Below, one piece after another: positions 1,980-24,426 of a stretch of DNA of 26,209 nucleotides. The notes below the pieces were generated by a model. It was given only the letters and a program-made list of their open reading frames with translations. It searched no databases and was not told the DNA's origin. The stretch is taken from the IMG/VR virus record IMGVR_UViG_3300034108_000316, positions 1 to 26,209 of that record; one strand, written 5' to 3'. The stretch comes from a virus. How positions within the stretch are numbered: the first letter of the stretch is position 1; the number at the start of each line of letters is the position of its first letter. Position numbers and translations under genes: made by a program.

Positions 1980-2250
1980 GTAATTCGTAATGCTCGGAGT
2001 CTAATTTCTTGTGAACTTTAATGGGTTTGCGAACTAGGCGAGGTGACATCCATGCGGGAACCTCGACGGCAATACGCTCCCCATCTAACGATGCATACAC
2101 ATATCTGGGGTTGTTGGCGAGGCCAATCACCGTGACCTCTAGTGGCTCAGGTGCTGGTTCTGGGGCGGGAATGGCCGCTTCCGCCTGTGGTTCTACCTTT
2201 GGCGAAACCTTCTTGGCCACCTTCTTTGCTGCTTTTTTCGTTGTTTTCAT
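1969..2250 (-). CDS. Small Lys/Ala/Pro-rich protein between terminase and portal
   Basis: This is a 93-aa protein of unrecognised family. The first 20 residues are almost entirely Lys, Ala and Val (KTTKKAAKKVAKKVSPK), followed by a Pro/Glu/Ala linker (about 22-36), then a compact domain of about 55 residues ending in a His/Glu/Tyr tail. The basic N-terminus suggests nucleic-acid or acidic-surface binding. Its start has the clearest Shine-Dalgarno in the late region: AGGAGG nine bases upstream of ATG, followed by CTAACC. It begins 2 bases after the terminase stop and overlaps the portal start by 11 bases, so it is made with the packaging proteins. A head-assembly or DNA-binding accessory role is possible but unproven. 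Confidence 0.75.
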   Translation of the reverse strand: MKTTKKAAKKVAKKVSPKVEPQAEAAIPAPEPAPEPLEVTVIGLANNPRYVYASLDGERIAVEVPAWMSPRLVRKPIKVHKKLDSEHYELHGN

Positions 2251-2265
2251 GGTTAGTATCCTCCT
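2251..2265 (-). promoter_or_regulatory. Strong Shine-Dalgarno with CTAACC extension
   Basis: On the minus strand AGGAGG is followed by ATACTAACC and then the ATG at 2250. The AGGAGG supports this start. The AACC immediately before ATG matches the motif seen before many other starts in this genome that lack AGGAGG. Confidence 0.8.
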
Positions 2266-3851
2266 GTGCCTTGTCTAGTTACAGCTATATGTGACCCGTC
2301 AACATGGTCAATGCCAGAGATTGCGGCGTAGCGCAGGACATCTATGGGGTCTTTCCACGCCTCCTTCAAACCACCATCGCCCGTGTACTCGGACAGGGCT
2401 TGGATGATGTTCTCGCACTCGGAACTGACATAGAAATGCGGTCGGTTGACCGAATCTGACGGCATAGTTACATTAAATGACATTTTCCCGATCAAAGCTT
2501 GCAACCCATCGTCGATTTCCAAGCCGGGGGCGGGTATGCACACGATGCCCTCGTCGTTCAAATCCTCGATAATGGATGATGCCCCGTCCGCAGACTGGTA
2601 CTTTGCCGCCCCAAGTCGTGGGTCAATGAGACGCTCTAGAATCTCCTCGTCACCCTCTAGGTCTTTTATGAGTTCCACATAGTCGCGGATGCCGTATCCC
2701 TGCCCCTTGGCTCCCTCTCCTGCAACCCACTTGCCTCCTCGCCACTCAGCCCAGTCACCTACATCCACGCCCGGCCATTCCCTGTAGACCCAATAGGTTC
2801 CGCTCGCGTCAACGGCAATCCAGCACATAAACCAATTTTTGGCTCCCGCAGGATCGACAATATGGTAGCGCGTCACATTTTTCGTTGGAATAGTGTCGGG
2901 AGATACCACATTTACCTCCTTGTTGAATTTGGGAAACTTGGTGACGTGGGACTTAACTGGAACCCCGTACGCGCGAATTAGGATCTCCTCCCGAGGCCTT
3001 CCAACTAGGGTCTCCTTGATTCGCTCGTAGCCACCGAAAGGGTTGTCCTGTGAATGGAAATAATGGACGCTGGCATTGCGCTTCTTACTCCGCTGGACAT
3101 AGGGGACAAGCTCGCCATTTAGCAGTTCAGCCTCGCGGCTCTCTATGCTGGTTGCTCCATCCAAATACTCTTTGATCACCTCCGTGTACCCGTCAATCGG
3201 GGTGAAGGTCAGCAACAGCTTTGCGTTGCGGGTTGCCAGTCGGAACCGCAGGGTGTTGATCAACTCAGGGCCAAGCAAATACTCATCCAACCAAACGCCC
3301 ACATTATGCCAATTAGGAGAGCGAGAACCCAACTCCGCTCCCTCAAGGATGGTCGGGTTGTTTTGATACTGGGAGTAGGTCTTAAATATGATCTGAGAGC
3401 CGTTGGGTAAGATGAGCGATGAGTCAGTGAATCCATTTTTCTTTGTGTAGGAAATGTATGTCCCGGAGGAAGTCTGCTTCGTGCGTAGTTCTGCGGGAAG
3501 CCAATCCCACACGGCACTCTGCTGCTGGCGTATGCTCACCTCGGATGTCTGTGCAAAACACATGATCTCGGCATTAGGATTCTCGATAGCAGCACGCACC
3601 ACGGAGAATGCACCCCACTGCGTCTTGCCGCTGCGGTTGCCACCAAGTGCCACAATCTCGTTTACCTCCTGTAACTGATCTTCGGCCTTGGCCCAGTGAG
3701 GGAGTCGGAAGCCAAAGCGGTACGGGTCGCGTTCTGCGTTGTCTACGGCTTCGTGGTAGACCCTGTGAAGCTCAATAAGCTCTTCTGGCTCCATGAGGGA
3801 GATTTCCTCATCGGTCGGCGGAGAAAGGATCTGGTGGGTACGCCACTTCAT
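2253..3851 (-). CDS. terL: Terminase large subunit (packaging ATPase and nuclease)
   Basis: This is the DNA-packaging motor and headful/cos nuclease, acting at the portal. From the ATG at 3851 it is 532 aa. The ATPase domain has Walker A GGNRSGKT (70-77), Walker B VGVWLDE (D189, catalytic E190) and a coupling motif LLLTFTP (212-218). The RNase H-like nuclease domain shows acidic residues in HIVDPAG (D333), ERLIDPR (D410) and DPIDVLRY (D501/D504). An in-frame ATG at 3911 would add 20 residues, but those lie within the upstream gene. The 3851 start makes an ATGA overlap with that gene's stop, like other junctions here, so it is preferred. The next gene (portal side) starts 3 bases after the stop. 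Confidence 0.95.
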   Translation of the reverse strand: MKWRTHQILSPPTDEEISLMEPEELIELHRVYHEAVDNAERDPYRFGFRLPHWAKAEDQLQEVNEIVALGGNRSGKTQWGAFSVVRAAIENPNAEIMCFAQTSEVSIRQQQSAVWDWLPAELRTKQTSSGTYISYTKKNGFTDSSLILPNGSQIIFKTYSQYQNNPTILEGAELGSRSPNWHNVGVWLDEYLLGPELINTLRFRLATRNAKLLLTFTPIDGYTEVIKEYLDGATSIESREAELLNGELVPYVQRSKKRNASVHYFHSQDNPFGGYERIKETLVGRPREEILIRAYGVPVKSHVTKFPKFNKEVNVVSPDTIPTKNVTRYHIVDPAGAKNWFMCWIAVDASGTYWVYREWPGVDVGDWAEWRGGKWVAGEGAKGQGYGIRDYVELIKDLEGDEEILERLIDPRLGAAKYQSADGASSIIEDLNDEGIVCIPAPGLEIDDGLQALIGKMSFNVTMPSDSVNRPHFYVSSECENIIQALSEYTGDGGLKEAWKDPIDVLRYAAISGIDHVDGSHIAVTRQGTGGY

Positions 3852-4757: not shown

Positions 4758-7700
4758 TTACTTCAGCTTCGCGGCGTTTGCAATAGCGGAAGCGTCACCT
4801 TTTGCGGTAGACTTCTTCTTGGGTTTCTTGGTGTTTCTTTCCGCTTGAATTTGCTGATATGAGCGATACGCCTCTGGATTTCCAGAACCAAACTGTTTAG
4901 CTCGATTGCTTTTAGTTTTTTGGGTTCCCTCGCGCAATATTAGAGGTTTTGCACTTCCAGTAATATCACCAGTTAAAAGCTTATCAAGATTGATACCTGT
5001 GACCATTAGTGGCTGCGCTCCAAGCCTTCCCCCAACTTTCTTTTTAGCAAACGCCCGTGGATCTGTTGTAAGTTTTGCTACATTGTGCATTTCCGACAGC
5101 GTAGCTTTTTTCTTAAATTTAATCCTCCAAGGATATGCCCTGTTTAATTCTGGTTTGTGTTCTGGAGTCGAACCATCGTACTCTGCAATAGCATACAGAT
5201 CTCCAAGTTCAGCACCTTCAAACTCTGGTTGTCGATATTCTTTTGCTGCTGTCTCTAAATCAAGACCAAGTTCAACAAGCTTTTTGTATTTAATAGGAAG
5301 AGTTTTTGCAGTCAACTTACTATAGAACATAGGAGCTGCAGCCCAAGGAATTTTATTGAAATAGTTTGATAGATCATCTGCGCTTTCAATCATTTTAGCT
5401 GCGTTGCGCCAGTCAGTCTTAACATTTTTGCTGTCTGAATTTATAATGCGCTTCATTGCCTGCTTGATATGATCATTGGCCAATTCTTCGCTAATCTCGC
5501 CAGTTGAAACGAGATATTTCCACTTTTCAGCATATGCCTTTCTGGCATCAAGCGAGTTTAGGTGGTTTGCGGAGCCTAGAGATGCAAGACCGATAAGTGG
5601 TTCTCCATCTTTTTTCCATCTAGTAACAAACGCATCTGCTGCGGCTTTGTCAGTAAATGCCCATCCATCGTTATCTAGATATCCCGGCCCGCCTTTAAAG
5701 CTTGCTGTGTACTCTCCGTATTTGACATCACCAACAAGCGACAAGTCAGATGTTAGCACTTGCACTCGCTTGCCCTTAAATGCTGACAATTTTTCTACTG
5801 GTTCTGGCAGGAATCGCATCTGACCAGTCTGCGAAATCTTACGCATCTCTGGGGTGATGTTCACCTTCCAGATTGGAATGCTGCCAGTCTCCGCTTCCTC
5901 ACCGCTCATGATGTCGGCTTCCACGGATTGCGTCATGTCTGCCTTCTCGACCTTTCCACCGAACTGCTTAACATACTTGCCAACCTCTTTTGGGAGCATG
6001 TTGTCGTAGAATCCACGCATGCCGCTTCCGCCCACTTTTAGGTCGTTACCCTCAAAATTAGCAGGTGATTCAAGCGCAATAATCTTGTCTGCCATGTCTT
6101 TCCCAACAACTTCATCAAGTCGTTTTCCCGTAAACTGATCTGCGGACTGATACCCGTTCACAATCCCGTTGCTATCGACCATCATTTTGAATGATGTCCC
6201 GTCTTTTGGATCAATCCTAACCGAACGAGACCCGTCTGCGTTAACCATCGGGACAGATATGCTATCAACCTGCTTGCTCAAATCAAACCGATCATTCTGC
6301 GTCTCTCCAGTCGTCCAACCAATCCAGTCCTTGCCACCATCCACGGCATCACGCAGTGCGCGTTTGAATAGTTGGATTGGCCAAGTGGCGCGGAAGGGTG
6401 CGTCTGCGATGCGACCAGATGCGTCCGTTGATATAGTTCTGGCTAATTCTGGAACTTCTGATTCTAACTTTTTGTATTGTTCGGAATTTGGATCAAGTTC
6501 ATTTTGCAATTTGCGGATTTCTTTGATCCTATTGCTTGCGGATTGCTTTTCATTTTCTGTAGCTACATACCCCTTCTTCCTCCCCGCCTGATGCCTGTCA
6601 GACTGGAACTCCTCCACGAACAAGCCCTCGCTACCATCGTCCAGCGTGCGCTCGTTTGTACGCATGTGGGCGACATAGTTGGGGATGTCGGGGAAGTGGG
6701 AGGAGGTGTATGAGGGCTTGGATTCTTCTTCAAAATCCCACGAATTAACCTTGGGATTTTTAATGTTGGGATGATTGTCGATGTGAGATTGCGCCTCTTC
6801 CTTTGTTTTGAATACGACTCCAAGTTGTGCGCGACCTATCGTGCTATCATAAATGATTCCCCAATTCTTGCGTTTTGTTGGTGGAATCGGCATCGCCAGC
6901 ACCACCTCGCGGTAGTTCTCGCCGCCGGGGAGGACATATTGGGAGAATTTAGCTTCTGGTTGCTCTTGCGTTCTAGAATCAAGCTCGTCAGTCAAACGAC
7001 GATATTCCTGTGATGTGATCTCACCACGACCTAATTGCTCACCAAGACGCGACCTTTCAGCCTCGTAAGCGTTTCTTCCTTCACCAAGAGTCACCTCCTC
7101 AAACCTAACCATGCCCTCGTTACGAAGGTAGTTAAGCAGATCCTCCTTGGACACCTTGCCGTCCTTCTCCAGACTCGCCAGTGCCTGCTCTATGCCGCTC
7201 CACTTGATCTCGTCTGCCTTCACTCCACTCCCCCGTGTCGGGTCGATGGTGGCCATGATCTGCTGCGCTGTGGCGCGGGTGGGAACCTTGTCGGTGATGA
7301 CGCGCTCAAGCTGGGAGTAGAACTTGTCCTCGTCCACACCCTCCGGCATGAAGCGGGTTGGAGCCTGCTCGCCCTCTGGCATCGCTCGCTGGGCTTCTGG
7401 CATGCGGACTTGGCTATCCTCGTAGCTTGGAGTGTAGCGTAGATCCTTTGGCTCGCCATTCTCGTCTAGGATTGGCTCACCCTCTGGGAGGTAGTTGATC
7501 TTCACCAGATTGTTCTGGTACGGCAGATTGGTAGATCCAACCATCTGAGTCGCCTTGTTGATCCGATCAAGCCTGTAGGTCTTAACCACTGCGTCAACTT
7601 TATCTGACGCGACTAGCGGGTTAATGTCTTTGTGTCCTGCACCGACATTGCCGAACACGGAGTTGATGAACGCCTTGTGAGACTCCCATGCAGCACCATA

Positions 7701-10700
7701 CTTCTCCTTGAAGTGTGCGTCAGTAGGTTTGCCATCAACTTCCCCGTGTAGCTCAATCACCCTGTTTACATCGCGCAGGATAGCTTCAATGTTGCCCTCG
7801 TACAACTGTACACCCTTTTTGCTGGCTGCCTTCTTGGATATGTTGGCATGCATCTGATTCGTACTCATGATACGAATCGAAATATTACCCTTTTTGGAGA
7901 TTTCCACACCATACGGAACTACATCGCGCAGGCTTGGCTCAATCTGGTCGTATCTCCATTTTCCTTTTTTGTTACGCCCAAGTGCCGCTTGGTAGATGAT
8001 AGAAAAACGATTTCCCCTAGTCTCTGGTGCAGCATTCGGATCTAGTGTTGCCTTGGCGGCTTCGTTAAGCATCTCAAGTTGGCGAATTTGCGGGTTGTTG
8101 AACCTGCCAGATAATCGAAGTATCCGAATTTGATCTTCGGTTAGATACTTTCCGCTCCAAGTTTGAGTGTCTGGGTTATAAACAAGTTGACCTTCAGCAA
8201 TGGTCTCACCATTGGCTTGTCGTCTGTTCTGATCTTCAATCAAGAGAAGACCTGCGGTTGCTCGCATCTCTTCGGTCTCCTTCTTGAGCGGGATAAAATC
8301 ACCATCCTTATCAAGGAACGGAACGCCATCAGCGTCCCCCTCCCAGAATGACACCATTGACTTGAGAATAGGATCTGTCTTTCCGTTGATCTTGAGCTTA
8401 ACACCTTCCTTGGCCTTTACTCGCGCTTGATCAAATCCACCCTTTCGGCCAACGGAATCGCTGACCATTTTCTTGAACATTCTGCGGATCTCTGGACTCT
8501 GGTACATTTGACCACCTAGGAATCCATTTCCTGATACCATCTTACCATTCTTGTCCATCACGCCACCCAACTTGAAGTGTAGGTCGCGCAAGATGGATGA
8601 CTTATTTAGGATGGAATCACCTAGCGCACGAACCTTGTCGTTGATGACCATGCGTCCTGCCATCTTCCCAAGCTTTCCGCTTTCGACAAGACCTAGCATG
8701 TCTTCAACATTGCTCTCGATGAAGTATTCCTCGGCTAGGTATTTTTCGCTCGGTGCTTGAAACTCTCTTTCGTTGGCGGATATCTTGTCTCCAATTGCCT
8801 CACGCATCTTGATCATTTGTGCGTGTTGCTGGCGCAGGCGATCCACATACTCTTCTTTGAATGCCTCGTATTGTGGCTCGTACTTGCCATCAGCAGTACG
8901 AAGAATCCCACCAGTCTGGTATCCATCTCCAACAAGCTGCGCGACAATTCCCTCACCAATCCCGTTGTTCATCATGTGGTGCATGAATTCATGCGTCACC
9001 AATGGCTTAATTGGGTTGCTGGAGTTTGGGTTGATGTAAATGGTGTTCGTGTTTGGGTCGATTCCACCACCACCAATGGTTGTGAACATCACCCTTGCGC
9101 CGGGGTTTGTGGCAGAGAATGTCCCAATAGCTCTCCTATAATCCTCTGGCATGCCGTTGAACATCACCCGCTGCTGCGGGTCTTCTAGCGTCCTGTAGAA
9201 GTTGAGCGCATTTCCGTTCTGGAGGGAGCGAATCTTCTGCTTGCTTCCCATCGTAATAGCCCCAAGGCCACCACCAGCACCACCGAAAAACACAGATTCT
9301 GACAACGCTTCTCCAATTGACCCCGCATCCATTTTGCCACCCTCTGCGACATATTGGAACGCGAGATCGGCTGGGACTGCGGCTAGAACACCTTTAGTGG
9401 TTCTTACTCCAAAGTCAGTAACCCTCCCGCCAAGAGTAGCGGTGTCCATGAACCCGGCAATAGCACGGTTGACCGGGCCTTGATTTGGCATTGCGTATAT
9501 ACGCTTCCAGAAACCAATATCCGCGCGGGACTTCATGGCTTCCTTGCCTACCAAGTTAATAAACCTTCCAGCACCTTGAATGAACGGAGCGGTAGACCAT
9601 GTTGCCTTGATTGCGGCTGGAATAAATGCCGCCGGGCCTAGCCCCGCTGCCGCACCTACCGTTCCCAAACCAGACAGCGACGAAATCTTATTCATCGCAT
9701 TGTAGGCTTTATCAACGCCAATCTTGGATGCCAATTTCGACAATCCCTTGTCGATTCCGATCATACTACGCCCCACATACTCAAGAGTTGACCCAACCAT
9801 AGTAATCGGCATGTAAGGAACCTCCTTGGCCTTCTGCATCATCTGGTTGAACTTGTCAGCAACGGTTGCGTCCTTTGTCATCGTTGCGATGTCATCGCTG
9901 ACGCGGGTGATCTCGTCCTGTAGACCTCCTAGCTTCACCCCAGTCTCTTGAGCTTGACGACGAATCGCATTTGCGGCGGTGATTTGACTGTTTGCTCGAT
10001 CCACAAACCCACGCTTGGAAAGTCTAGCAGCAGTCTCCTCTGCTCGCGCTGCTTGTTGCTCAACTGTTTTAATTGCAAACTGGTAGTCTGCGGCTTGCTT
10101 TTGAAGTGCCGTTAACTCTTTGGTTTTAGCAAGAACCTGTTGCGCTTTTTGTTCTGATCTCAAAAGCGATCCACTAATTGGCGCGGTAATTCCACGGGCG
10201 GCTTTAAATCCAACTGCAAATGCCGCTGCCTCTGGAGCCGCTGGATTTAAGATTGATCCCGCCAATCCTATTGCCTTACCCTGCTCCACCACTTCTTTGG
10301 TTCTTTCTGGGCCAAGCACATCGGCTGCTTGTTGGTATGACTTAACGAATTCTGTAACTCCAGTAAGTTGGTCTACAGCCTCAGAAACGCTAACATTAGC
10401 TGCATCATTTAACACTCGCTCTCTAGCTTGACGGGTTGCTAGAATGTTTGCGTCCTTTTGAGCTTGGCTAATAATGTCAACCTCTGATCCACCAGCAATT
10501 CCAGTTGGAGTTGACATTGCGCCACGCATCATTAGCTCGCCAGCACCCAAAAGCGTGTAAGTGCCTTGATCGGAAAATTCCTTAATGGCTTCCTCAGTTC
10601 GTATGCGAGTAGCTGCGCGTTGTTCTGGAGTATAGTCTGTTTCAAGTTGTTGCTTAACTCCAGAGACAACATCAATAACCCCTGCTGGGCCTTTGGCTAT

Positions 10701-11222
10701 TCCACCTATTGCCTGAATTGCCCCCATTGCTGGTTCCGCTTCTTCGTAAAGTGCCGCGCCAAGGTTTTGAGTTGCTTTCCATAGCTCCTTTGCCCCATCC
10801 GAAAACCTAGCCATAGCACCTCTGCCATCATCGTCAAGATTTAGCTCCTCGGCCTTCCCATAAAGACTCAAATTATCTAGTTCAAGCAAGTCCTCACGCT
10901 TGGAAAGCACTGCTCTCCCGGTATCGTTTAGCGTGTAGTCTTCTTTAAGCGCACCAACCCTTCTCAAGGAAAGTGCCATCTGACCCCTCTCTGTAACCTG
11001 CCCGTCCGGGGTAGCATACCCACGCGCAACTAGATCCTCAGCAGAGTTTACAGCTGGGAACAACTGGTTGTCATACAATGGTTGATTGTTCGCATTGTAA
11101 GTTGGTACGGCAAAGTCTTGAGGAAGTGCCGCAACATCCTCTGGAGCGGCATCCTTTACAGCCATGCTCAGGCTGTGTTGTTCAAGGGCTTGTTTTAGTG
11201 CGTCCCGTTGTTGGGGGGTCAT
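4758..11222 (-). CDS. Giant 2154-aa multidomain virion/polyvalent protein with HExxH peptidase motif
   Basis: This is the largest gene. Residues 1-350 are helical with hydrophobic stretches. About 357-447 is a predicted coiled coil rich in Ala/Gln/Glu. Gly/Ala-rich hydrophobic segments at about 517-545, 607-628 and 640-660 could be membrane or channel segments. A zinc metallopeptidase motif HEFMH is at 744-748 with a candidate third ligand in AEEYFIESN near 830. About 1425-1805 resembles the domain common in phage polyvalent proteins (LPGGENYRE, NERT, FVEEFQSD.HQ, GWTTGE..NDRFDLSKQ). The linker motif RF[M/L]PE occurs at 1290-1294 and 1803-1807. The C-terminal 350 residues are unassigned and end Lys-rich. 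By position after 416-aa and 686-aa internal-type proteins and before the terminase it resembles a T7 gp16-like ejection protein. Domain roles are inferred; a membrane channel plus enzymes delivered into the host is the best guess. Confidence 0.85.
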   Translation of the reverse strand: MTPQQRDALKQALEQHSLSMAVKDAAPEDVAALPQDFAVPTYNANNQPLYDNQLFPAVNSAEDLVARGYATPDGQVTERGQMALSLRRVGALKEDYTLNDTGRAVLSKREDLLELDNLSLYGKAEELNLDDDGRGAMARFSDGAKELWKATQNLGAALYEEAEPAMGAIQAIGGIAKGPAGVIDVVSGVKQQLETDYTPEQRAATRIRTEEAIKEFSDQGTYTLLGAGELMMRGAMSTPTGIAGGSEVDIISQAQKDANILATRQARERVLNDAANVSVSEAVDQLTGVTEFVKSYQQAADVLGPERTKEVVEQGKAIGLAGSILNPAAPEAAAFAVGFKAARGITAPISGSLLRSEQKAQQVLAKTKELTALQKQAADYQFAIKTVEQQAARAEETAARLSKRGFVDRANSQITAANAIRRQAQETGVKLGGLQDEITRVSDDIATMTKDATVADKFNQMMQKAKEVPYMPITMVGSTLEYVGRSMIGIDKGLSKLASKIGVDKAYNAMNKISSLSGLGTVGAAAGLGPAAFIPAAIKATWSTAPFIQGAGRFINLVGKEAMKSRADIGFWKRIYAMPNQGPVNRAIAGFMDTATLGGRVTDFGVRTTKGVLAAVPADLAFQYVAEGGKMDAGSIGEALSESVFFGGAGGGLGAITMGSKQKIRSLQNGNALNFYRTLEDPQQRVMFNGMPEDYRRAIGTFSATNPGARVMFTTIGGGGIDPNTNTIYINPNSSNPIKPLVTHEFMHHMMNNGIGEGIVAQLVGDGYQTGGILRTADGKYEPQYEAFKEEYVDRLRQQHAQMIKMREAIGDKISANEREFQAPSEKYLAEEYFIESNVEDMLGLVESGKLGKMAGRMVINDKVRALGDSILNKSSILRDLHFKLGGVMDKNGKMVSGNGFLGGQMYQSPEIRRMFKKMVSDSVGRKGGFDQARVKAKEGVKLKINGKTDPILKSMVSFWEGDADGVPFLDKDGDFIPLKKETEEMRATAGLLLIEDQNRRQANGETIAEGQLVYNPDTQTWSGKYLTEDQIRILRLSGRFNNPQIRQLEMLNEAAKATLDPNAAPETRGNRFSIIYQAALGRNKKGKWRYDQIEPSLRDVVPYGVEISKKGNISIRIMSTNQMHANISKKAASKKGVQLYEGNIEAILRDVNRVIELHGEVDGKPTDAHFKEKYGAAWESHKAFINSVFGNVGAGHKDINPLVASDKVDAVVKTYRLDRINKATQMVGSTNLPYQNNLVKINYLPEGEPILDENGEPKDLRYTPSYEDSQVRMPEAQRAMPEGEQAPTRFMPEGVDEDKFYSQLERVITDKVPTRATAQQIMATIDPTRGSGVKADEIKWSGIEQALASLEKDGKVSKEDLLNYLRNEGMVRFEEVTLGEGRNAYEAERSRLGEQLGRGEITSQEYRRLTDELDSRTQEQPEAKFSQYVLPGGENYREVVLAMPIPPTKRKNWGIIYDSTIGRAQLGVVFKTKEEAQSHIDNHPNIKNPKVNSWDFEEESKPSYTSSHFPDIPNYVAHMRTNERTLDDGSEGLFVEEFQSDRHQAGRKKGYVATENEKQSASNRIKEIRKLQNELDPNSEQYKKLESEVPELARTISTDASGRIADAPFRATWPIQLFKRALRDAVDGGKDWIGWTTGETQNDRFDLSKQVDSISVPMVNADGSRSVRIDPKDGTSFKMMVDSNGIVNGYQSADQFTGKRLDEVVGKDMADKIIALESPANFEGNDLKVGGSGMRGFYDNMLPKEVGKYVKQFGGKVEKADMTQSVEADIMSGEEAETGSIPIWKVNITPEMRKISQTGQMRFLPEPVEKLSAFKGKRVQVLTSDLSLVGDVKYGEYTASFKGGPGYLDNDGWAFTDKAAADAFVTRWKKDGEPLIGLASLGSANHLNSLDARKAYAEKWKYLVSTGEISEELANDHIKQAMKRIINSDSKNVKTDWRNAAKMIESADDLSNYFNKIPWAAAPMFYSKLTAKTLPIKYKKLVELGLDLETAAKEYRQPEFEGAELGDLYAIAEYDGSTPEHKPELNRAYPWRIKFKKKATLSEMHNVAKLTTDPRAFAKKKVGGRLGAQPLMVTGINLDKLLTGDITGSAKPLILREGTQKTKSNRAKQFGSGNPEAYRSYQQIQAERNTKKPKKKSTAKGDASAIANAAKLK

Positions 11223-18739: not shown

Positions 18740-19396
18740 ATGTCCAACAACTGTGGAACCTACATCGTCAAATGCGGCAACACCGCCTACATCGGATCAA
18801 GCTCAAATTTCCAGCAAAGGAAGTCCGCTCACAAGCGTGACCTTGAGCGGGGAATCCACCCGAACCAAAACCTTCAGCAAGCTTTCGACGGGTCACAGGA
18901 CTTCTCATTCATCCCTCACCAGTACATCACCCCAGTAGACTGCCCAAACGAGCTACGCAACATCCTGCGAAACGCAGAGCAAGCCCTGCTGGACGAGGCC
19001 GCGAAGTCCAACCTGTGGGTCATCGCAAACATCTCCCAGAACGCATTCGGCCCACACGCAAGACCAGACATGGTAGCAAGGTGGCAAGATCCAGAGTTCC
19101 GCAAAAAAACGCTGAATCGCCTTCACAATCGGGTGGTTACAGACGAGACAAAACGCAAGATGTCGCTAGCAAAGCAGGGGGAAAACAACGCCAAGGCTCG
19201 CAAGGTAATCGTCACAAACCCAGACGGGTCAGAAATCACCTTCAGCACAACCACCGAGGCCGCGCAGTTCTTCCGAATCTCGCAACAACTACTGCACCTC
19301 ATGCTCAAGGGCAAGACAGCTTGGCCGGGCAAGGGGAAGTTCATCCGCAACAAGGAAAACGAGTGGATGAGGGAGTACGAGGCTAGGCTGGTGTAG
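18740..19396 (+). CDS. GIY-YIG homing-type endonuclease with NUMOD-like tail
   Basis: This 218-aa protein starts with a GIY-YIG nuclease domain: GTYIV (6-10), YIGSS (17-21), a conserved Arg (R27, QQRKSAHKR region) and a likely metal-binding Glu in the NAEQALLDEA helix (about E80). The C-terminal half resembles the NUMOD DNA-binding modules of free-standing phage endonucleases: TDETKRKMSLAKQGENNAKA (about 134-153), then an NxDGSEITFSTTTEAAQFF helix-type module (160-178). Such enzymes cut at a specific site in a related genome and promote their own copying. It is the only protein gene on the plus strand, with its own candidate promoter and a perfect terminator, so it is an autonomous insertion in the switch region. 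No intron could be defined around it. Confidence 0.9.
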   Translation: MSNNCGTYIVKCGNTAYIGSSSNFQQRKSAHKRDLERGIHPNQNLQQAFDGSQDFSFIPHQYITPVDCPNELRNILRNAEQALLDEAAKSNLWVIANISQNAFGPHARPDMVARWQDPEFRKKTLNRLHNRVVTDETKRKMSLAKQGENNAKARKVIVTNPDGSEITFSTTTEAAQFFRISQQLLHLMLKGKTAWPGKGKFIRNKENEWMREYEARLV

Positions 19397-21987: not shown

Positions 21988-22247
21988 GCCTCGTACAGGT
22001 ACAGGTATTTCTCGCAGTTGCGCACGAAATGCTCGACTGCCCGGCTGCGTGTCTTTTTAGACCCTCGGAAATGCTCAACGCAGATTCGGTCGAGGATTGC
22101 CCATGCCTCTGGGGACATGGTGATGCTGGAGGCGATGCGGTGTTCACCAACGGGTAGTGGCTTGCGCCCAACCTTCGGCCTTGGAAGGTCTGCAATCATC
22201 TGTTGCAACTCGGTTGGTTTGTCAGGCTTGGTGATCTGGATTCTCAT
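21984..22247 (-). CDS. Ribbon-helix-helix-like DNA-binding protein (87 aa)
   Basis: The C-terminal half has a beta strand then two helices in the order of a ribbon-helix-helix fold: HRIASSITMSPEAWAILDRICVEH followed by SRAVEHFVRNCEKYL. The N-terminal half is basic and Pro-rich (PRPKVGRKPLP). Such proteins are usually dimeric repressors or accessory DNA binders. Its stop overlaps the start of the winged-helix replication gene (ATGA), so it may regulate the replication genes or assist at the nearby iterons. The target is unknown. ATG at 22247 is preceded by an A-rich leader without AGGAGG. Confidence 0.7.
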   Translation of the reverse strand: MRIQITKPDKPTELQQMIADLPRPKVGRKPLPVGEHRIASSITMSPEAWAILDRICVEHFRGSKKTRSRAVEHFVRNCEKYLYLYEA

Positions 22248-22407
22248 GTATTTGTTCTGTGATGTCTTGTATGGCTAGTTCAAGCAGGTCTAGTTCCTGC
22301 GTGAGTCTCGGTGTTGATCCCAGCTTCTCCCGCTTGAGTCGGCGCATGTATGCCTCCTTGAGGCAGGCTAGGATTAGCCCTCTTGCTGTTATTGGTTGGT
22401 CGGTCAT
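22222..22407 (-). CDS. Small helical protein (61 aa)
   Basis: From ATG at 22407 the product (MTDQPITARGLILACLKEAY...) is almost all helix with a basic centre (MRRLKREKLG) and acidic C-terminal half (ELDLLELAIQDITEQIHENP). The family is unknown. It overlaps the next gene by 26 bases and, in another frame, the last 128 bases of the preceding zinc protein. The frame is open further upstream to 22473, but that part is the shadow of the zinc gene. Confidence 0.6.
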   Translation of the reverse strand: MTDQPITARGLILACLKEAYMRRLKREKLGSTPRLTQELDLLELAIQDITEQIHENPDHQA

Positions 22408-22501
22408 GGCATGTGCGGCAACTGGGCGACGAGCGGAACTCTGAGATTGCTTTCGGGAGTCCGCAGGTCGCACAGATACGCCAGCGTATTGGTTCTGTCA
22501 T
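22280..22501 (-). CDS. Small zinc-knuckle protein with long overlap
   Basis: The 73-aa product has CATC (10-13) and CRTC (28-31) pairs around GLPKAISEFRSSPS, the pattern of many small phage zinc proteins (CxxCGxxKxxxEF...CxxC). Its start overlaps the previous stop as ATGA, supporting translation. After residue 38 the sequence becomes low complexity (NPSLPQGGIHAPTQAGEAG) exactly where the frame overlaps the 61-aa gene, so the C-terminal half is probably only tolerated overlap, or marks a lost upstream stop. Confidence 0.6.
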   Translation of the reverse strand: MTEPIRWRICATCGLPKAISEFRSSPSCRTCHDRPTNNSKRANPSLPQGGIHAPTQAGEAGINTETHAGTRPA

Positions 22502-23124: not shown

Positions 23125-23315
23125 GGCTGACCTCCCTTCCATTGCAGGTAGGCCCAGCCTAGAGCAACCCACCATGCGATTACTGCGGCGATGATTGCCA
23201 CCCGATCCCAGCGGACATAACGCTGGCGGCGGGGTGGTGGGATGATTGGGAGTGGTAGTGGATGCTGTTCCAAGTATCCAAGTGTGCTGTTGTTTTCTAG
23301 CTTGTACGATTTCAT
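23121..23315 (-). CDS. Single-pass membrane protein (64 aa)
   Basis: The N-terminal 25 residues are polar, followed by PLPLPIIPPPRRQRYVRWDR (a proline-rich then basic stretch) and one hydrophobic helix at about 40-58 (VAIIAAVIAWWVALGWAYL), ending in KGGQP. The topology would be N-in by the positive-inside rule. The family is unknown; a holin-like or superinfection-exclusion role cannot be told from one helix. Its ATG overlaps the methyltransferase stop (ATGA), and its leader, CTAACCAACCAACAACC, is the end of the methyltransferase coding sequence. Confidence 0.7.
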   Translation of the reverse strand: MKSYKLENNSTLGYLEQHPLPLPIIPPPRRQRYVRWDRVAIIAAVIAWWVALGWAYLQWKGGQP

Positions 23316-24424
23316 GGTTGTTGGTTGGTTAGTAGTTCAGTCAAAAGAGTTCTAAATGCTCGTTCTGCGGTGGCTGGGACAACCCCATTCCCAAGACTGC
23401 GAAGCTCATCGGTGCGATTATCACAGGTCGTGTACAACTCGGCATAGTCCAGCCAATCGGAAGTCCCATCAGGGTTTCCACCCAGCGGGGGTTGAGCTTG
23501 CCAGTTGCTTTCCCGCAATGCCCCGCAATCTCCTCCTCCAAGTTGGACTTGTTCCTGTTCGCCAAGTGATCCCTGTTGTCCTCGGTGATCTCTGGATGAA
23601 CTTTGTTCGCTCTCGGCGTTGCCCACAACTCTTGGCGGCTCCCATCCGTGCTGGGGTTCGCCGGGGCGGGAAGGCCACATGTCACAGCATCCCTCAACCT
23701 CGCTCCGTACTTCGGCGCATCCTCCTTGGAGTGGTTGTGGTAACTGCGAAACACTCCGTCCACAAACTCCGTCTTGTATGGGCCGCCCATCGTGTCCATG
23801 ACTGTTGCTGTAGGCCAGTTCTTCTGCTCGTCCACTACCGCATCGCTCAAGTAGCGTTGCCCCTTGCCAGTTTTGTCGTAGTAGGCTCCACGCTCGTTGC
23901 TCCCCATGTGCATCGTGGGCCAAGATGAAGACCCGCTTCCGTTGGTGAGGTGCGCCGACTTCACGCGCAGAGAATATTCCCCACGACACTTTGTAACCCA
24001 ACTCTTCCAAGTCGCTGATGACGCTGGAGAGTCCCAGCGAGATGTGTCCTTCGACATTCTCGAAGAAGCACACTCTTGGTCGCAGAATCCGAATTCCGTC
24101 TGCGATCCAAGGCCACAGGTGTCTTGGGTCTTCCTTTCCTGCTCGCTTTCCTGCTGCGGAGAATGGTTGGCAGGGGTAACCTCCAGTAAGGATGTCCACT
24201 CGGTCTCGAAAGCTTTCCCAAGGGAAGGTTTTAAGATCCGTCCATATAGGTGCTGACTCCATGAGTCCCGCTTCCATTTTTGCAACCAAGTTCGCAATGG
24301 GGAAGGCTTCGATCTCACAAAGAGCGACTGAGCGCAGAGTTGGGAGGACTCTTGCAAGTCCAAGTTCAATGCCTCCGTATCCTGCACAGAGTCCAATGTG
24401 TGTAATTGTTTTGGTAGTATCCAC
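23312..24424 (-). CDS. DNA (cytosine-5) methyltransferase
   Basis: This 370-aa enzyme would transfer methyl from S-adenosylmethionine to C5 of cytosine, probably protecting phage DNA from restriction. Visible motifs: I GLCAGYGGIELGL (11-23), IV GGYPCQPFSAAGKR with catalytic C85 (81-94), VI FENVEG (121-126), VIII GAPHQRKRVFILA (157-169), and X LRSLGNGVVPATAERAF (341-357). The stretch 200-310, where the target-recognition domain should be, is Gly/Gln/Ser/Glu-rich and low complexity. The start is GTG at 24424; no ATG is available in frame. No restriction partner is nearby. A second full-length open frame overlaps this gene (separate entry). Confidence 0.93.
   Translation of the reverse strand: MDTTKTITHIGLCAGYGGIELGLARVLPTLRSVALCEIEAFPIANLVAKMEAGLMESAPIWTDLKTFPWESFRDRVDILTGGYPCQPFSAAGKRAGKEDPRHLWPWIADGIRILRPRVCFFENVEGHISLGLSSVISDLEELGYKVSWGIFSAREVGAPHQRKRVFILAHDAHGEQRAWSLLRQNWQGATLLERCGSGRAEELAYSNSHGHDGRPIQDGVCGRSVSQLPQPLQGGCAEVRSEVEGCCDMWPSRPGEPQHGWEPPRVVGNAESEQSSSRDHRGQQGSLGEQEQVQLGGGDCGALRESNWQAQPPLGGNPDGTSDWLDYAELYTTCDNRTDELRSLGNGVVPATAERAFRTLLTELLTNQQP
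23316..23332 (-). promoter_or_regulatory. AACC-repeat leader before the 64-aa membrane protein
   Basis: CTAACCAACCAACAACC directly precedes ATG 23315, with no AGGAGG. It is simultaneously the 3' end of the methyltransferase coding sequence, encoding Leu-Thr-Asn-Gln-Gln-Pro. Confidence 0.5.
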
Positions 24425-24426
24425 AT
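23341..24426 (-). CDS. Overlapping second frame in the methyltransferase gene (361 aa)
   Basis: A same-strand frame starting at ATG 24426, two bases before the GTG of the methyltransferase, is open for 361 codons over nearly the whole gene. It is not obviously random. From about residue 130 it shows features I recognise from phage methyltransferase-locus proteins: SSSWPT (166-171), NWPTATVMD (203-211), LWATPRA (267-273) and a C-terminal GKLNPRWVETLMGLPIGWT (309-327). The first 100 residues look less structured. The strong motifs lie where the methyltransferase frame is low complexity (its residues 200-310). It may be a real overlapping gene, a product reached by frameshift, or a frame kept open by the evolution of the locus. 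Function unknown. Confidence 0.5.
   Translation of the reverse strand: MWILPKQLHTLDSVQDTEALNLDLQESSQLCAQSLFVRSKPSPLRTWLQKWKRDSWSQHLYGRILKPSLGKAFETEWTSLLEVTPANHSPQQESEQERKTQDTCGLGSQTEFGFCDQECASSRMSKDTSRWDSPASSATWKSWVTKCRGEYSLRVKSAHLTNGSGSSSWPTMHMGSNERGAYYDKTGKGQRYLSDAVVDEQKNWPTATVMDTMGGPYKTEFVDGVFRSYHNHSKEDAPKYGARLRDAVTCGLPAPANPSTDGSRQELWATPRANKVHPEITEDNRDHLANRNKSNLEEEIAGHCGKATGKLNPRWVETLMGLPIGWTMPSCTRPVIIAPMSFAVLGMGLSQPPQNEHLELF

Follow-up and report, generated by a model that had tools for sequence, protein, structure and literature searches.

A viral contig (IMG/VR) very probably encodes a split DNA cytosine-C5 methyltransferase (C5-MTase) whose two subunits come from overlapping reading frames of one stretch of DNA. 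The window, that is, the whole stretch of 26,209 nucleotides analyzed here, carries the gene on its minus strand (Table 1). The product of frame 1, alpha, is 370 amino acids (aa) long and starts at a GTG, and the product of frame 2, beta, is 361 aa long and starts at an ATG; the two frames have 1.08 kb of DNA in common. A sequence-only reading of this DNA had reported two same-strand frames of 370 and 361 codons with starts overlapping as ATGTG, and both open reading frames (ORFs) were confirmed. Sequence comparison among homologues demonstrates selection on both frames; that beta is expressed and that both chains are required is inferred, and there are no expression data for beta.

Table 1. 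Features of the two overlapping methyltransferase frames (positions are those of the window)
Feature	Position	Strand	Basis
Alpha CDS (C5-MTase catalytic large domain)	23312..24424	-	PF00145, AlphaFold2, Foldseek
Beta CDS (overprinted N-terminal region, recognition-like WxTP region, motif IX)	23341..24426	-	Stop avoidance, family alignment A1, phrog_1008, wobble constraint
Nested starts ATGTG (beta ATG, alpha GTG, 2 nt apart)	24422..24426	-	
Alpha motif I LCAGYGG (SAM binding)	24371..24391	-	Sequence; GYGG invariant in alignment A2
Alpha motif IV GGYPCQPFS (catalytic Cys)	24158..24184	-	Sequence; PC invariant in A2
Alpha motif VI ENVEG	24047..24061	-	Sequence; ENV invariant in A2
Alpha motif VIII QRKRVF	23927..23944	-	Sequence; R, K, R, and F invariant in A2
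Alpha residues 189-344, variable and predicted disordered	23393..23860	-	pLDDT <50 over most
Beta motif IX LNPRWVETLMGLPIGW (beta residues 311-326)	23449..23496	-	Conservation, matrix, HMM
Alpha motif X LGNGVVP	23375..23395	-	Invariant in A2

The beta frame is kept open in homologues

Viral contigs were scanned once with alpha and once with beta; at about 150 loci, both frames matched almost from end to end, with their register preserved. The earlier reading had based the improbability of the second frame on (61/64)^361, which is the wrong null; instead, we shuffled synonymous codons within each of 103 distinct alpha genes (258 to 561 codons), leaving the last 40 codons of each gene out of the stop counts. 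The beta frames of these 103 homologues contain 2 internal stops against 568.6 expected, whereas the third frame contains 1,530 against 1,494 expected and shows no avoidance. For the window gene alone, shuffling predicts 7.1 beta-frame stops, and each of the 200 shuffles contained at least one. One of the two stops observed is a real truncation (L045, codon 281 of 499), and the other sits at the very start of its gene (L059). A chance ORF is ruled out by this null, and the frequent frame 2 stops in homologues that had been named as a refutation of dual coding did not materialize.

The starts are also arranged alike. In nearly all homologues inspected, the beta ATG lies either 2 nt (ATGTGG) or 5 nt (ATGACATGG) upstream of the alpha start; the 5-nt variant reads ATG(ACA)TGG, and alpha starts there with ATG.

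The frame that drives conservation changes along the gene

Conservation at alpha codon positions 1, 2, and 3 is 0.88, 0.92, and 0.76 in the N-terminal block (motifs I to VIII), where the third position is the most variable, indicating that alpha drives conservation there. The corresponding values in the motif IX block (16 codons) are 0.66, 0.87, and 0.89; here, the third position is the most conserved and the first the least, suggesting that beta is the driving frame. Over the LNPRWVETLMGLPIGW stretch, beta residues are 97% conserved and alpha residues 63%.

The N-terminal block is also constrained by beta, as judged from its alpha-synonymous sites. Ten alpha 4-fold sites are near invariant in this block, each of them beneath a conserved beta residue (E26, L35, R53, D54, L60, L65, W77, S125, V144, and R154). 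Mean wobble diversity is 0.22 over alpha codons 22 to 76 versus 0.56 over codons 79 to 121 (p 6e-6), the latter overlying a poorly conserved beta linker. At alpha-synonymous sites in close pairs, beta-nonsynonymous changes are rarer than beta-synonymous changes (0.21 versus 0.54), but codon position and the small number of SS sites confound this tally, which has supporting value only. The other refutation named beforehand, a lack of excess conservation at frame 1 synonymous sites, is contradicted by the third position of the motif IX block (0.886) and by the ten 4-fold sites. Together, the open beta frame and the synonymous-site conservation support the earlier suggestion of conserved dual coding.

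Alpha is a probable catalytic half

Alpha matches PF00145 (E 2.9e-32) over residues 9 to 173 only and is also matched by phrog_363. Its AlphaFold2 model is confident at about residues 1 to 185 and 345 to 367, which correspond to the SAM-binding large domain and the C-terminal helix, and has a pLDDT of <50 over most of residues 189 to 344. The model resembles the large domain of M.HhaI/M.HaeIII (Foldseek E about 1e-13), and C5-MTase motifs I, IV, VI, VIII, and X, as already read from frame 1, are present on this SAM-MTase large domain.

The small domain of a C5-MTase holds the recognition region and motif IX. A position-specific matrix found no motif IX window in alpha, an HMM of the C-terminal half of beta did not match the window alpha (E 62), and no recognition domain is recognizable in it. 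Based on the matrix, the HMM, and the predicted disorder, alpha has no target recognition domain (TRD) and motif IX small domain in its own chain. The DNA of alpha residues 189 to 344 encodes, in the beta frame, a recognition-like region and motif IX.

Beta carries a recognition-like region and a putative motif IX

Beta runs from its overprinted N-terminal part through a WxTP-rich recognition-like region to motif IX, LNPRWVETLMGLPIGW. It matches phrog_1008, named “DNA methyltransferase” (E 2.6e-16), and has no Pfam, NCBIfam, or PADLOC family match. Modeled by itself with AlphaFold2, beta reaches a pLDDT of only 57 and has no PDB fold match, which counts against the split-enzyme reading, and the beta profile matched no PDB sequence even at an E value of 10. 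In INPHARED, tblastn with the window beta retrieved only 5 records versus 307 with a more distant beta (L182) as the query.

The identity of the motif was assessed with a matrix built from 19 beta motif variants. Its top window in a canonical Lactococcus phage MTase is the canonical motif IX, LTPRECWRLQGFPDWA, which aligns with M.HhaI residues 270 to 287; the shuffle p value of the best window is only about 0.05, yet its position is exactly that of the canonical motif. The profile of the C-terminal half of beta matches single-chain actinophage MTases in frame, between motifs VIII and X, with E values of 3e-8 for Rita, 9e-8 for Phasih, and 4e-7 for Baddon (notional 1,000 sequences). The same HMM does not reach the canonical Lactococcus phage MTase (E about 110), and the link to the canonical motif IX therefore rests on the motif matrix and the single-chain relatives. 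In Rita, phrog_1008, which matches beta, matches residues 196 to 388, and phrog_363, which matches alpha, also finds a match. On these comparisons, the C-terminal motif of frame 2 is the motif IX that is absent from frame 1, and the two proteins are thus best read as halves of one enzyme. Motif IX alone connects beta to MTases of solved structure, which counts against a split enzyme.

A two-chain enzyme and its alternatives

We propose that ribosomes start at both codons of ATGTG, at the ATG for beta and at the GTG for alpha, such that one mRNA with two start codons would yield the two chains in about fixed proportion. Alpha would contribute SAM binding, catalysis, and motif X, and beta is inferred to contribute sequence recognition and the motif IX scaffold; folded on each other, they would form the large and small domains of a C5-MTase, although both the assembly and the methylation are inferred. 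The N-terminal third of beta (about residues 1 to 80, plus 124 to 165), which lies over the catalytic motifs, is probably a dimerization part. Two observations in the window count against this proposal: no clear Shine-Dalgarno sequence precedes beta, and the GTG of alpha is a weak start.

The main rival is programmed frameshifting into one chain, whereby translation would leave the alpha frame past motif VIII, continue in the beta frame, and return before motif X, making a single MTase and no separate beta. In its favor, the modules follow one another on the DNA in exactly the order of a single-chain MTase, but most loci would need two shifts, and the beta frame is open and wobble constrained upstream of any plausible shift site, over the DNA of motifs I to IV. 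Moreover, in nearly all loci examined, beta begins at a separate ATG whose distance from the alpha start is fixed, and the depositors of Paenibacillus phage Diva gave its beta ORF a start of its own and labeled it an internal gene. On this evidence from frames and starts, we consider frameshifting improbable.

Still less probable, in our judgment, is that the overprinted beta, although a real protein, has a function unrelated to the MTase, for instance as a nuclease, an anti-restriction protein, or a homing endonuclease. Overlapping HNH genes within phage methylases are documented (ShiLan; PMC11855218), and the lack of family matches leaves room for such a function; however, an HNH or other nuclease domain in frame 2 found no support in Pfam, NCBIfam, or PADLOC, the best-conserved segment of beta is motif IX, placed as expected before motif X and homologous to the in-frame motif IX region of single-chain MTases, and this is the motif that alpha lacks. 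The idea that the second frame is merely an untranslated by-product of base composition and alpha conservation is hardly tenable. Same-strand frames are partly conserved automatically, as seen in the N-terminal block, where amino acid conservation is 0.71 for beta and 0.69 for the third frame, but this does not account for stop avoidance that is specific to the beta frame, for the far stronger conservation of beta than of alpha at motif IX, or for 4-fold sites that are invariant only beneath invariant beta residues.

As for the role of a two-chain methyltransferase, the earlier suggestion of a host-defense locus was not supported. The contig is viral and no restriction enzyme was recognized in the window, the vicinity of the gene included, making an orphan phage modification enzyme likelier; by inference, it would probably shield phage DNA from host restriction.

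Relatives, module shuffling, and spread

Double-coded relatives are spread over phages, plasmids, and genomes from many bacterial phyla. A motif IX-like segment in the +1 frame was found in Verrucomicrobiota and Desulfobacterales contigs; in phages of Salmonella, Pseudomonas, Klebsiella, Stenotrophomonas, Acinetobacter, Paenibacillus, Synechococcus, Microcystis, and Microbacterium; and in plasmids of Lacticaseibacillus, Rhodoplanes, Bacteroides, and Leptospira. Escherichia coli strain PT62 has an intact chromosomal copy. A Bacteroidales contig (L169) and a deep-sea phage (L180) retain part of the second frame, but no clear motif IX was found in them; in these two and in L188, the recognition region is short and motif IX is degenerate or was not found, which counts against the split-enzyme proposal. 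Across L002 to L160, the length of alpha ranges from 258 to 561 codons, apparently according to how many WxTP repeats separate motifs VIII and IX, and these repeats may be recognition modules that differ between phages.

The modules are also distributed differently between the frames. Motif X is in the beta frame in L025, L058, L060, L170, L172, and L174, of which L172 and L174 are the Gordonia phages Upyo and Float294. In Rhodococcus phage ReT1v-2 (L173, positions 1484 to 2646), LPTP repeats are in the beta frame and motifs IX and X are in the alpha frame, representing a third arrangement of the same modules; the annotated CDS there is the beta-frame ORF. Such reshuffling between frames makes sense if two chains build one enzyme. 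Actinophages carry the alpha and beta modules in one chain, and in a tree of alpha N termini (73 rows, root undetermined), these single-chain enzymes form one group beside the split forms of Gordonia phages. A single switch is therefore enough, but its direction is not given by the tree.

In some lineages (L163, L176, and L179), beta starts inside alpha, with stops at alpha codons 51 to 59. The beta of Paenibacillus phage Diva (L195, positions 1001 to 1705) is of this type and was deposited as “g49 internal gene,” a hypothetical protein with its own start. In Synechococcus phage Ssp-JY39 (L162, positions 2001 to 3116), only the beta-frame protein is annotated, as hypothetical, and the alpha methyltransferase was missed. 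A prophage copy in E. coli PCP07014 (L196, positions 1501 to 2262) is annotated as a pseudogene; its alpha and beta are stopped at nearly the same place, and both subunits thus seem to have been lost together.

We consider it an even chance that these loci represent an ancient and extensive class of phage cytosine MTases, most of it unannotated, with catalytic and recognition halves in two frames that overlap end to end over 0.7 to 1.7 kb. In this view, the N-terminal domain of beta originated de novo, overprinted on the catalytic motifs, and a later fusion of the two frames may have produced the single-chain enzymes of actinophages.

Significance and neighborhood of the locus

Phage genes annotated as one cytosine methyltransferase may in many cases encode only half an enzyme, and alpha expressed alone should be inactive or without specificity. 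With more than 100 homologues, the family offers a strong natural case for the origin and persistence of overprinted genes, because both products belong to one enzyme and, among relatives, each module is found in either frame or fused into one chain. Naturally split methyltransferases are also useful for targeted methylation, for which M.EcoHK31I has already been used (PMC3439449).

Elsewhere in the window, the contig has terminase, DnaB-like helicase, and replication initiation genes. A GIY-YIG/NUMOD3 homing-endonuclease-like ORF (18740 to 19396, plus strand) lies amid minus-strand phage genes, and an ORF of 2,154 aa (4758 to 11222, minus strand) has no significant PHROG match. Two more ORFs overlap in different frames at 22222 to 22501 (minus strand), one of 83 aa with a GTG start and one of 73 aa with an ATG start; the latter carries CxxC pairs.

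Comparison with known systems

The closest characterized enzyme to the window locus is M.EcoHK31I, in which the gene of the large subunit contains the small subunit in a different frame, as the alpha gene contains beta, and activity requires both polypeptides. The division of motifs is also alike, as motifs I to VIII and X of M.EcoHK31I belong to the large polypeptide and motif IX to the small one (PMC3404938). However, the predicted TRD of M.EcoHK31I was placed in the large subunit (PMC3404938), whereas in the window, the recognition-like WxTP region is in beta and alpha has no ordered region there. Further differences are that the window beta spans essentially the whole alpha gene, starting 2 nt upstream, and that no restriction partner is seen at the window locus. 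M.AquI is naturally split after motif VIII, with a small subunit comprising the distal variable region and motif IX (PMC3404938). In that enzyme, motif X is in the small subunit, whereas it stays in alpha in the window; a small chain with both motifs IX and X, as in M.AquI, occurs in L025, L058, and L060 and in the Gordonia phages Upyo and Float294, which together with L170 resemble M.AquI in composition.

The enzymes of Mycobacterium phages Rita, Wachhund, and Phasih have the same module order (motifs I to VIII, LPTP repeats, motif IX LAPAFSEWMMGWPAGW, and motif X), but there a single reading frame encodes all modules as one chain. PHROG 1008 matches the window beta and the betas of known phages from the overprinted N-terminal part through motif IX; its name is silent on members being the second frame of another MTase gene, and some members carry motif X. 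An HNH protein with a ShiLan domain has been found hidden out of frame inside a phage C5-MTase gene (PMC11855218) and is likewise a second protein in another frame of such a gene; it is an inserted homing endonuclease with a patchy distribution, whereas beta is an MTase part without HNH that overlaps the whole gene. A literature search of limited coverage found no paper describing widespread end-to-end dual coding. Naturally split C5-MTases are already known, and what is new here is the complete overlap, the overprinted N terminus of beta, and the breadth of the family.
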